A stretch of DNA of 64,000 nt from Actinomycetes bacterium. Its GTDB lineage: Bacteria; Actinomycetota; Thermoleophilia; BMS3ABIN01. A program made the translations under genes and the position numbers. Below, in pieces: positions 7,492 through 53,530 of the stretch. The stretch is from assembly GCA_021787475.1 (NCBI GenBank), contig JAJYLW010000006.1, positions 1 to 64,000 on the forward strand, given 5' to 3'. How positions within the stretch are numbered: the first letter of the stretch is position 1; every line of letters starts with the position of its first letter. The notes under the pieces were generated by a model. That model did no database searches. It worked only from the letters and a program-made list of their open reading frames with translations, and was not told the DNA's origin.

Positions 7492-9180
7492 TCAGCATTT
7501 GTTTTTTATCAGATCAATTATCTTCGCTGCCGCCACCCCCGCTTCAAACTTGTATTCTTCCCCCCCGCGCCTTAGCCCTGCCTCGACTTGGCCGCCGGCC
7601 ACGGCGCGCTTTCCGATGGTGACCCGGACCGGGCAGCCCAGCAATTCGGCTTCGGCAAACTTGACCCCCGGCGAGACGGCGCGGTCATCCAGGAGCGCTT
7701 CGACGCCTAAAGCGGCAAGCTCCAAGTAAAGCTTCTCGGCCATTTCCGCCTGCCGGCCGTCGGCCGGCTGCACCAGCACGAGATGAACCGTAAACGGAGC
7801 AATCGCGGGGGGCCAGACAATCCCCTTGCCGTCGGCCAGCTGCTCGACGGCAGCGGCGGCGACCCGGGCGGGACCAATGCCGTAGCTGCCCATGATGACC
7901 GGCCTCTCACTGCCCTGCTCATCCAGATAGGATGCTCCCATCGGGCCGCTGTACTTCGTCCCCAGCTTGAAGATGTTGCCGATCTCAATGCAACGCTCGA
8001 GCTTCAGCGAAGCGTTGCAATGCGAACATTTTTCCCCCTCGCGCACCTGCCTGATATCGGCAAATTCAACCTGGAAATCGCGGCCGGGCACAACCCCGCC
8101 GATGTGGAAGCCGTTTCGGTTGGCTCCTATGACAAAGACGCCATCCCTGAGGCTTTCGTCGGCAATCATGCGGATATCAAGGCCCAGCGGCCCGGTAAAA
8201 CCGGCCTCGGCGCCGGTGATCTCTTTTACCTCGCCGGGATCCGCCAGGCGGTTGCTGCCCACAATGCGGGCCAGCTTTGCCTCCAGCAGATCCTGGTCGC
8301 CCCGGACCATCGCCAGTACCGGCCCCTGTTTTGTCATCACCAGCAGTGACTTGACAAGCAGGTCGGGGGTTAAAGTGAGGAATTTTGAAACCTCTTCAAT
8401 TGTGCGGGCGCCGGGTGTGGCTATCTCTTTGATTCCCGGCGCCGGAAACTGCGGCCTCGCCGGCTCAGAGCGGGCCAGTTCCACGTTGGCGGCGTAGCCG
8501 CAGCTTGGGCAGAGCGCGACCTCATCCTCGCCGGCGCTGCTTGGCGCCATGAATTCATGCGCCACGGCGCCCCCCATCATGCCCGGATCGCTCTCAACCA
8601 TGTAGAACTTAAGACCGGCGCGCTCAAAGATGCGGTTGTACGCCTGTATATGAAGCCGGTAGCTTTTCTCCAGAGATTCCTCGTCAGCATCAAAGCTGTA
8701 GGAGTCCTTCATGATGAACTCGCGCGTGCGCAGGACGCCGCTTTTGGGCCGGGCTTCGTCGCGGAGCTTTGTCTGAATCTGATACCAGATCTGCGGCAGG
8801 TCGCGGTATGAGCGGATCTCACGCGCCGCCAGCCAGGTGACGATCTCCTCGTGGGTCATTCCCAGGACCATGTCCCGTCCGCCCCGGTCCCTCAGCCGGA
8901 ACATCTCGGCGCCGATCTCGCCGTAGCGGCCGCTTTGCTGCCAGATCTCCGCCGGCTGCAGCACCGGCATCGACAGCTCCTGGGCGCCGATGGCGTTCAT
9001 CTCGTCGCGGATGATCGCGTTGACTCTGGCGATAACCCTGAGTCCCAGCGGCAGGTAAACATACAGGCCGGCGGCCAGCTGACGCACCAGCCCGGCGCGG
9101 ATCATCAGCTTGTGGCTGATCGCCTCGGCCTCGGCGGGATCCTCCTTATGGGTAGGGAAAAAAAGCCTGGATGCGCGCAT
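7492..9180 (-). CDS. proS: Prolyl-tRNA synthetase, bacterial type
   Basis: 562 residues, the standard size of the bacterial enzyme. It has the class II catalytic core split by the editing (INS/YbaK-like) domain at about 230-400, and a C-terminal anticodon-binding domain. Motif 2 region 'LRDEARPKSGVLRTREFIMK' and motif 3 'MGSYGIGPARV' are visible. It charges tRNA-Pro and its INS domain clears alanyl-tRNA-Pro. It is the last gene of the minus-strand super-operon. The 418-bp gap before it contains hairpins and a possible small RNA, so it may have its own promoter. Confidence 0.97.
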   Translation of the reverse strand: MRASRLFFPTHKEDPAEAEAISHKLMIRAGLVRQLAAGLYVYLPLGLRVIARVNAIIRDEMNAIGAQELSMPVLQPAEIWQQSGRYGEIGAEMFRLRDRGGRDMVLGMTHEEIVTWLAAREIRSYRDLPQIWYQIQTKLRDEARPKSGVLRTREFIMKDSYSFDADEESLEKSYRLHIQAYNRIFERAGLKFYMVESDPGMMGGAVAHEFMAPSSAGEDEVALCPSCGYAANVELARSEPARPQFPAPGIKEIATPGARTIEEVSKFLTLTPDLLVKSLLVMTKQGPVLAMVRGDQDLLEAKLARIVGSNRLADPGEVKEITGAEAGFTGPLGLDIRMIADESLRDGVFVIGANRNGFHIGGVVPGRDFQVEFADIRQVREGEKCSHCNASLKLERCIEIGNIFKLGTKYSGPMGASYLDEQGSERPVIMGSYGIGPARVAAAAVEQLADGKGIVWPPAIAPFTVHLVLVQPADGRQAEMAEKLYLELAALGVEALLDDRAVSPGVKFAEAELLGCPVRVTIGKRAVAGGQVEAGLRRGGEEYKFEAGVAAAKIIDLIKNKC

Positions 9181-9397: not shown

Positions 9398-9510
9398 TGC
9401 TAGAATAGTTAACTATAGCGTTCAGGATTCGATTTCTTACCGTGACGCAATCGGTTCCTAGCGCTATCTTTCGCATAAGCCGGGGCGCGCCTGCGCCCCG
9501 GCTTTGTGTT
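9398..9510 (+). ncRNA. Candidate small structured RNA (about 95 nt)
   Basis: On the plus strand an extended -10 element, TGC-TAGAAT (9398-9406), is followed by a segment that can fold. ATAGCG (9415-9420) pairs with CGCTAT (9462-9467), and an inner AGGA/TCCT pair extends the stem. It ends at a perfect 11-bp GC-rich hairpin (9478-9488 with 9493-9503) and then TTGTGTT. The T-run is weak and no -35 box is clear. No coding potential is visible and I recognise no known RNA family. Confidence 0.35.
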
Positions 9511-9528
9511 CCCTTCATACCTATCTCG

Positions 9529-9552
9529 ACGGGTGTATCCTGCTGCAGCCGG
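9529..9552. repeat. Dispersed GCAGCAGGAT repeat, fragment
   Basis: Read on the minus strand it gives GGCTGCAGCAGGATA and then ACACCCG, the core of the repeat seen in full at 62651-62700 and 20491-20545. The AATTCGTGGCG half is missing here. Confidence 0.5.
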
Positions 9553-9598: not shown

Positions 9599-10657
9599 TC
9601 AGCGCCTGTCGCGGCGCTTTTTTTCAATCTCTGAAAACAGGGCGTCCACCAGCCCTGCTACAGCCGCTTTTCTTATCGGCCGGCCTTGCGCAAAAATGAG
9701 GCCCTCCCCCTTGCCGCAGGCGATGCCGAAATCGGCATGGCGGGCTTCGCCGGGACCGTTGACAACACAACCCATCACTGCCACTTCCAGATTCAAGCCG
9801 CCCTCCTGAAGCCGCTCTTCCACCTCAAGTGCAATCTCTTCCACATCAACTTCGGCTCGACCGCATGTAGGGCAAGATATCAAGTTTGGGCCGCGTCGTC
9901 GCAGGCCCAGGCTCTTCAGGATGTCGTAACCGGTGCGAACCTCCTCAACCGGGTCGCCTGTCAGCGAGACCCGGATCGTGTCCCCCACTCCCTGCGCCAG
10001 CAGCGCCCCGATGCCAACCGCGCTTTTGACCGCACCCGTCCTGACGGTGCCCGCCTCGGTCACGCCCAGATGAATGGGATAGTCCATCCTCGCCGCCAGA
10101 GCCAGATTGGCGTCAATAGTTTCCCTGGCCGATGATGACTTGGCTGATACCTTGAAATCCGCAAATCCAAGCTCCTCAAACATATGCACATATTCAAGCG
10201 CTGCCTCAACAAGCGCCCCGGCGCGGTCTTTTTCCGCCAATGGCCGCACTTCTTTCGGCAGCGAGCCGGAATTGACGCCGATGCGGATGGGCGCCCCGGC
10301 TTCCCGGGCCGCCTTGATCACATCCTCCACCCTGGCGCGGCCGCCAATGTTTCCGGGGTTGATGCGGACGCTGGCCGCTCCCGCAGTGAGGGCGCCAACC
10401 GCCAGACGGGCATGAAAGTGAACGTCGGCCACCACCGGCAGCGGCGACCCGGCAATGATTGCCGGCAGGCTGCTCAAAGCCTCGTCGTCAGGTATGGCAA
10501 CGCGCACGATCTCGCAGCCGTATGCGGCCAGGCTGCGTATCTGGCTTAGGGTCGCCTCGGCGTCACGGCTGTCGGTATTGGTCATTGACTGTACCGACAC
10601 CGGCGCCCCGCCGCCAACGGCCACATTGCCTACGTGTATCTGGACTTTACTGGCCAT
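9599..10657 (-). CDS. ispG: 4-hydroxy-3-methylbut-2-en-1-yl diphosphate synthase
   Basis: 352 residues, the short bacterial form of IspG (GcpE). It reduces MEcPP to HMBPP in the non-mevalonate isoprenoid pathway. An N-terminal TIM barrel is followed by a [4Fe-4S] domain with the cysteines of CPTCGR and GCVVNGPGEA. The opening 'VQIHVGNVAVGGGAPVSVQS' is typical of the family. It follows rseP on the same strand and shares the operon with dxr, another enzyme of the pathway. The start codon has no clear ribosome site; a heptamer array (10663-10697) lies immediately upstream. Confidence 0.96.
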   Translation of the reverse strand: MASKVQIHVGNVAVGGGAPVSVQSMTNTDSRDAEATLSQIRSLAAYGCEIVRVAIPDDEALSSLPAIIAGSPLPVVADVHFHARLAVGALTAGAASVRINPGNIGGRARVEDVIKAAREAGAPIRIGVNSGSLPKEVRPLAEKDRAGALVEAALEYVHMFEELGFADFKVSAKSSSARETIDANLALAARMDYPIHLGVTEAGTVRTGAVKSAVGIGALLAQGVGDTIRVSLTGDPVEEVRTGYDILKSLGLRRRGPNLISCPTCGRAEVDVEEIALEVEERLQEGGLNLEVAVMGCVVNGPGEARHADFGIACGKGEGLIFAQGRPIRKAAVAGLVDALFSEIEKKRRDRR

Positions 10658-20490: not shown

Positions 20491-20545
20491 GGCAGGCAAT
20501 TCGTGGCGAGGCCGCAGCAGGATGCGCCCGGCGGGATAGTCTTAA
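20491..20545. repeat. Dispersed GCAGCAGGAT repeat, full copy
   Basis: Reads GGCAGGCAATTCGTGGCGAG, then GCCGCAGCAGGATGC, then GGCGGGATAGTCTT. It aligns with 62651-62700 along its whole length. It lies in the gap downstream of the phosphoribosyltransferase gene. Confidence 0.6.
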
Positions 20546-53470: not shown

Positions 53471-53530
53471 AGCCAACCCGGCAGGTGTATCCTGCTGCGG
53501 CCGGCGGCAAAGGCCTCGACGCGAATTATT
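53471..53530. repeat. Dispersed GCAGCAGGAT repeat, copy with an insertion
   Basis: On the minus strand: TAAATAATTCGCGTCGAGG, about 10 bp of extra sequence, then GGCCGCAGCAGGATACACC and TGCCGG. It lies between the convergent MTAP-like and SLT genes and overlaps the first bases after both. Confidence 0.5.

Follow-up and report, generated by a model that had tools for sequence, protein, structure and literature searches.

Between ispG (9599–10657, minus strand) and proS (7492–9180, minus strand), both identified by Pfam, a gap of 418 bp contains a foldable element that reads on the plus strand, and the question raised by this locus is whether the element is the gene of a small RNA (sRNA) and on what such an RNA would act. 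The window, that is the whole stretch of 64 kb that was analysed, is contig C15 of genome G000 (1.84 Mb). The first-pass annotation had described a plus-strand unit, opposite in direction to the flanking genes, composed of an extended −10 box, a foldable body and a GC hairpin, and this composition was confirmed in the sequence at 9398–9508.

Architecture and predicted fold

The extended −10 promoter element TGCTAGAAT (9398–9406, plus strand) lies inside the invariant block TTTGCTAGAATA, and no good −35 box was seen upstream of it. The predicted sRNA has a length of about 96 nt (9411–9506, plus strand); its 5′ end, at about 9411–9415, was placed from the spacing to the −10 element, and its 3′ end was placed from hairpin 2. 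In the predicted fold, hairpin 1 (9415–9467, plus strand) pairs ATAGCGTT..AGGA..TCGATT with AATCGG..TCCT..AGCGCTAT, and its closing pairs are formed by ATAGCG (9415–9420) and CGCTAT (9462–9467), which is the body pairing that had been reported before. Hairpin 2 (9477–9504, plus strand) consists of AAGCCGGGGCGC (9477–9488) and GCGCCCCGGCTT (9493–9504) around a GCCT loop; the stem is perfect, as annotated at first, but its length is 12 bp and not 11 bp. The TGTGTT that directly follows hairpin 2 gives it a terminator-like appearance with a weak T tail, and T-poor tails follow this strong GC hairpin in all three genomes that carry the element (G000, G001 and G002). A simple promoter and terminator scan called neither this −10 element nor hairpin 2, presumably because a −35 box, and a tail with more T, are required for a call.

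The plus strand at 9409–9508 folds with an energy of −50.4 kcal/mol (z = −7.8), whereas the minus strand of the same interval folds with −44.5 kcal/mol (z = −5.0); neither value was equalled by any of 200 shuffles. The same is true of the hairpin 1 body alone (9413–9466, plus strand; z = −3.35, 0 of 200 shuffles). At the gathering score, the covariance models of Rfam 15, which include 6C, T-box and others, gave no match in the 64 kb window, and at an E value of 10 the gap gave three matches, the best of which (E = 1) was to a yeast snoRNA family; the earlier statement that no known family was recognized agrees with this outcome.

A dispersed repeat with the core CAGGATACACCTGCCGGGA is found at 9524–9542 (minus strand), 20518–20536 (plus strand) and 53476–53494 (minus strand) of the window, and also at L002:1509, L003:1535 and other places. 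With up to three mismatches it has 31 matches in G000 versus none for the reversed control, and the counts are three in G002, four in G003, one in G001, none in G004 and one in G005. In some of its copies (15 contexts were read) the core belongs to an inverted repeat (CCTATCCCGGCAGGT...ACCTGCCGGGATAGG), of which it is the 3′ arm. The repeat is REP- or MITE-like and has no Rfam match in the window.

Distribution and conservation

In a BLAST search of 99 genomes, including its own, with the 126 bp element as the query, the only full-length relatives among the matches listed were those in G001 (85%) and G002 (91%), on contigs G001:C38 and G002:C51, respectively; both are uncultured actinobacteria of the same genus as G000. 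The other listed matches, at E values of up to 1, were short, and many were pieces of the GC hairpin. The records of the two closest relatives of the element are JAJYIM010000003.1 (Actinomycetes bacterium) and JACWAD010000101.1 (Thermoleophilia bacterium). An exact 21-mer of the core was found in two stretches of the genome_contigs collection (84,980 species genomes), which are these two relatives, and had no match in viral contigs; the element was also without a BLAST match in the phage collection.

Within the family, ispG was found in 18 of 19 genomes, including G000, and proS adjoins it in 17 of the 18 loci read, the exception being G006, in which this was not seen. The element is present downstream of ispG in three of these 18 loci (G000, G001 and G002), while 14 of the 17 ispG–proS loci are without it, their genomes also being without a match to the covariance model built for the element; no second copy of the RNA was found in other family members. 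Across 299 genomes of the class, including G000, the covariance search, for which the stricter filters of Infernal were used with at most 12 candidates scored per genome, such that diverged relatives could be missed, gave seven genomes with E ≤ 0.01, three of which were G000, G001 and G002. The four further matches were weak; three of them were rejected as relatives, since they comprise hairpin 2 only (model positions 75 or 78 to 114), and in the nominally full-length match of G094, the stretch that was read shows a GC hairpin. The ispG–proS gap of G004 (L072), in which the RNA has no match, contains a GC hairpin of another sequence (GCCGGGGCGTC...GATGCCCCGGC).

Alignment of the three genomes shows conservation from TTTGCTAGAATA through to where hairpin 2 ends, whereas the remaining gap aligns poorly. 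TTTGCTAGAATA itself is invariant, and the block of 13 columns around it shows 0–1 differences per pair of genomes. The core of 40 nt (9437–9476, plus strand), comprising the loop, the 3′ arm of hairpin 1 and the linker, shows no differences in any of the three pairs, whereas 14, 15 and 7 of the 29 columns of the hairpin 1 5′ arm and 3, 5 and 6 of the 33 columns of hairpin 2, with gaps counted, differ across the three pairs. The four-fold sites of ispG are 58.0, 61.0 and 61.2% identical across the three pairs, and those of proS are 58.8% identical between G000 and G002. At the rate of the four-fold sites, 40 unchanged positions would be very unlikely, being expected in less than one in a million cases per pair by our estimate. 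Mainly because the 40 nt core is unchanged while the four-fold sites have diverged by about 40%, we judge the element to be, very probably, a real RNA gene that is under selection. The edges of conservation coincide with the extended −10 element and with the end of the GC hairpin, which supports the small-RNA reading of the first-pass annotation, and a plus-strand sRNA gene is the supported best fit to these limits.

The evidence for conserved pairing within the RNA was considered separately. The folding energy of hairpin 1 is about −20 kcal/mol in all three genomes and is thus retained in G001 (−20.5 kcal/mol) and G002 (−19.4 kcal/mol) despite the fact that 15 and 14 of the 29 columns of the 5′ arm differ. 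None of the 29 RNAalifold pairs shows a two-sided compensatory change in the three sequences available, which have identical 3′ arms, and covariation support was not obtained. When the substitutions of the 5′ arm were placed at random, 136 and 67 of 3,000 sequences paired as well, which looked significant, but this test used nine and 11 substitutions, fewer than the actual 14–15 differing columns. When only the letters at the changed columns were randomized, 1,163 and 636 of 5,000 sequences folded as well, which is not significant, and because this position-matched test is the fairer one, conserved pairing is not claimed. The hairpin structure is compatible with the data but is not proven by them.

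A cytochrome gene start as the candidate target

The 3′ part of the core matches in antisense, by BLAST, the start of a long gene, G000:C35:27538, and the equivalent sites in G001, G002 and G003. The product of this gene, MRKIALVTLIALPVVLLLAFATSAYA..., contains several CXXCH motifs and matches Pfam Paired_CXXCH_1 (2.6e-16). The new feature reported here is that the core is antisense to the region in which this multiheme cytochrome c gene starts. Next come the genes of a lipoprotein-like protein (so named by our reading, as Pfam gave no match), of a TPR protein and of an NHL-repeat protein. The cytochrome gene with the lipoprotein-like, TPR and NHL-propeller genes behind it (L052:500–4458), together with a relative of the cytochrome (G000:C35:34879–35205) that is contained in a 1,374-codon open frame some 6 kb further downstream, is a possible electron-transfer cluster.

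The putative antisense seed (9463–9477, plus strand) is the reverse complement of TATGCGAAAGATAGC at the cytochrome start, and the complementarity comprises 14–15 exact pairs with an extension. The exact 14-mer GCTATCTTTCGCAT occurs at exactly two sites in each of G000, G001 and G002, one within the RNA and the other where the cytochrome gene starts. With 9419–9479 as the query in whole-genome BLAST searches at E values of up to 10, G001 and G002 gave no match besides the RNA itself and the cytochrome start (E = 0.0021 for the latter in each), and in G000 the cytochrome start was the best of three non-self matches (E = 0.015, compared with 0.34 and 0.63), the one with E = 0.63 lying about 4 kb downstream of the cytochrome start in the same cluster. 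In 467 kb of G000 there is no other run of at least 13 bases complementary to 9411–9478, and runs of 12 bases occur at four other places; hairpin 2 has complementary runs of 13 to 16 bases elsewhere in G000, taking the longest run per stretch and strand. The cytochrome start was chosen as the target after the search, and by our estimate one or another 14-mer of a 96 nt RNA should find a chance match about once in a genome of this size; the weight therefore rests on the extension and on the position at the start codon.

Ranking of the duplexes of the whole RNA with 120 nt windows had no discrimination: 6,291 of 30,772 windows, those on the antisense strand of the element itself included, were as good or better. 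The GC hairpin probably dominates such duplexes, and the test was therefore restricted to the core. The duplex between the core and the target, with −45.4 kcal/mol, was equalled or bettered by one of 26,443 background windows from 464 kb of G000, by none of 2,000 dinucleotide-shuffled versions of the core and by none of 330 starts preceded by a ribosome-binding site, a comparison for which the ranks alone were used, as the mean was spoiled by a few windows that were probably cut at sequence ends. The net cofold energy, defined as the duplex energy minus both self-folds, is −7.7 kcal/mol, which was reached by ten of 329 starts and 39 of 2,318 windows, placing the target only in the best 2–3%. 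In G000, G001 and G002 an in-frame ATG lies 12–13 codons upstream of the pairing site, behind AAAGGAGG; translation may in truth begin at this ATG, in which case the pairing site would fall within the coding sequence.

Conservation of the cytochrome start is not due to the RNA, since it is also present in genomes in which no RNA was found: ATGCGAA(A/G)ATAGC or a close form stands at the start in nine of the 14 cytochrome loci of relatives that were scanned, where the model finds no RNA. Outside the genus, the 15-mer has eight matches with 0–1 mismatches, six of them at cytochrome gene starts and one in G011. The eighth, in G016, stands at the start of an unrelated gene, which from its translation we read as similar to cyclopropane-fatty-acid synthase. 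A one-mismatch match in G004:C25 was rejected as a cytochrome start; it reads MPKIAHDLNG... and has no clear Shine–Dalgarno sequence. Close orthologues of the cytochrome (at least 78% identity) are found in G000, in G001, in G002, where a contig ends within the gene, and on G003:C96, whereas G004 has a relative with 40% identity and G005 has none at an E value of 1e-10. The stretch G003:C96:1–332 is identical to G002:C18:34116–34447 (332 bases at contig ends; L055 and L036). The identity of ispG to that of G000 is 72% for G003 and 85% for G002, and G003:C96 may be misbinned or recently transferred, given 332 identical bases in two genomes with such divergent ispG proteins. Should the contig truly belong to G003, this genome would have the target without the RNA.

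Proposed mechanism and alternative explanations

The reading that we favour, although tentatively and with somewhat less than even confidence, is that of a trans-acting antisense sRNA that represses translation of the multiheme cytochrome. As far as can be seen from sequence, the RNA would be transcribed from an intergenic promoter of its own, at a distance from its target, the extended −10 element being conserved in the gap and the target being on another contig. Transcription, termination, pairing in the cell and repression, all of which we infer, would proceed as follows. The extended −10 promoter would drive an RNA of about 96 nt, in which the linker UCUUUCG would be unpaired while the remainder of the seed would be held in the 3′ arm of hairpin 1 and in the foot of hairpin 2. 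The linker would serve as a toehold on the mRNA of the multiheme c-type cytochrome, the sRNA would then pair across AUGCGAAAGAUAGC and further into the cytochrome coding sequence, and this pairing would block or slow the initiation of translation. A more speculative proposal, which we regard as unlikely, is that the sRNA originated when approximately 35 bases from the start of its own target gene were copied in inverted orientation, that it then gained a promoter and a self-pairing 5′ arm, and that a trans antisense regulator of electron transfer thereby arose inside one genus. If true, these proposals would provide a named and testable sRNA–target pair in an uncultured lineage, as well as a case in which the origin of an RNA from its target could be traced.

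It is a real possibility that the element is a genuine plus-strand sRNA with other mRNAs or a protein as its main partners, the cytochrome match being a coincidence or a by-product. The conservation of the sRNA is independent of the idea of a cytochrome target, the invariant loop TTACCGTGACG is unnecessary for the cytochrome duplex, the pairing is only moderately favourable once unfolding is counted and, as seen in G016, ATGCGAAAGATAGCG can stand at unrelated gene starts. However, apart from the RNA itself, the core matches nothing in G001 and G002 but the cytochrome start, which is also its best match in G000, and the antisense match falls exactly on a possible start codon. The loop TTACCGTGACG has, among the sites listed, one further single-mismatch site per genome, each a different variant, and no shared second target was seen.

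A cis-acting element of the minus-strand ispG–proS transcript, for example a proS leader, in place of a plus-strand gene would account for the occurrence in the same ispG–proS gap in all three genomes and for the good fold of the minus strand (z = −5.0), but is improbable on several grounds. The plus-strand extended −10 element stands inside the invariant block and marks its edge, and the plus strand folds better than the minus strand. The spacing between the element and proS is not constant, at 218 nt in G000 but about 120 nt in G001 and 230 nt in G002, the intervening sequence aligns poorly, 14 of 17 loci with proS beside ispG are without the element, and there is no match to T-box or any other Rfam family.

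The element might also be non-functional, a terminator-like hairpin beside chance sequence, and short pieces of GC hairpin like hairpin 2 do make up many of the matches listed for the rest of the class, but the absence of differences at all 40 positions of the core in three species makes this very improbable. Least credible is that the element is a short minus-strand protein gene, starting with ATGCGAAAGATAGCG (MRKIALGTDCVTV...), or that it is what remains of a decayed copy of the start of the cytochrome gene. An open frame with a common MRKIALGTDCVTV is present in all three genomes and resembles the cytochrome start, but the proteins and stop positions diverge after the common codons, with no open frame common along the length of the element. 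The shared 40 nt contain no synonymous change, although identity at four-fold sites elsewhere is about 60%. Directly upstream there is a GC hairpin in place of a Shine–Dalgarno sequence, and invariance is not expected of a decayed copy.

Comparison with known systems

Searches of the open-access literature found no paper on small RNAs of Thermoleophilia, those that name both being, by their titles, on plant rhizospheres, and none joining a small RNA, a multiheme cytochrome and antisense; for an sRNA in an ispG/proS intergenic context, only papers on Zymomonas and Mycobacterium were returned, as judged from their titles. The 6C RNA is an actinobacterial sRNA of two hairpins with C-rich loops. 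The predicted ispG–proS sRNA resembles it as an actinobacterial sRNA of two hairpins, but differs from it in its loops, which are UUCUUACCGUGACGC-like and GCCU, and in having no Rfam match.

The sRNA scr5239 of Streptomyces coelicolor is reported to repress translation by binding an open reading frame at its 5′ end (PMC4365011). The pairing proposed for the ispG–proS sRNA is also located at the 5′ end of a reading frame. scr5239 is an experimentally studied RNA of 159 nt with metE and dagA as its targets (PMC4365011), whereas the ispG–proS sRNA is predicted from sequence. Of the systems compared, scr5239 is the nearest mechanistic parallel that we have seen for the putative ispG–proS sRNA.
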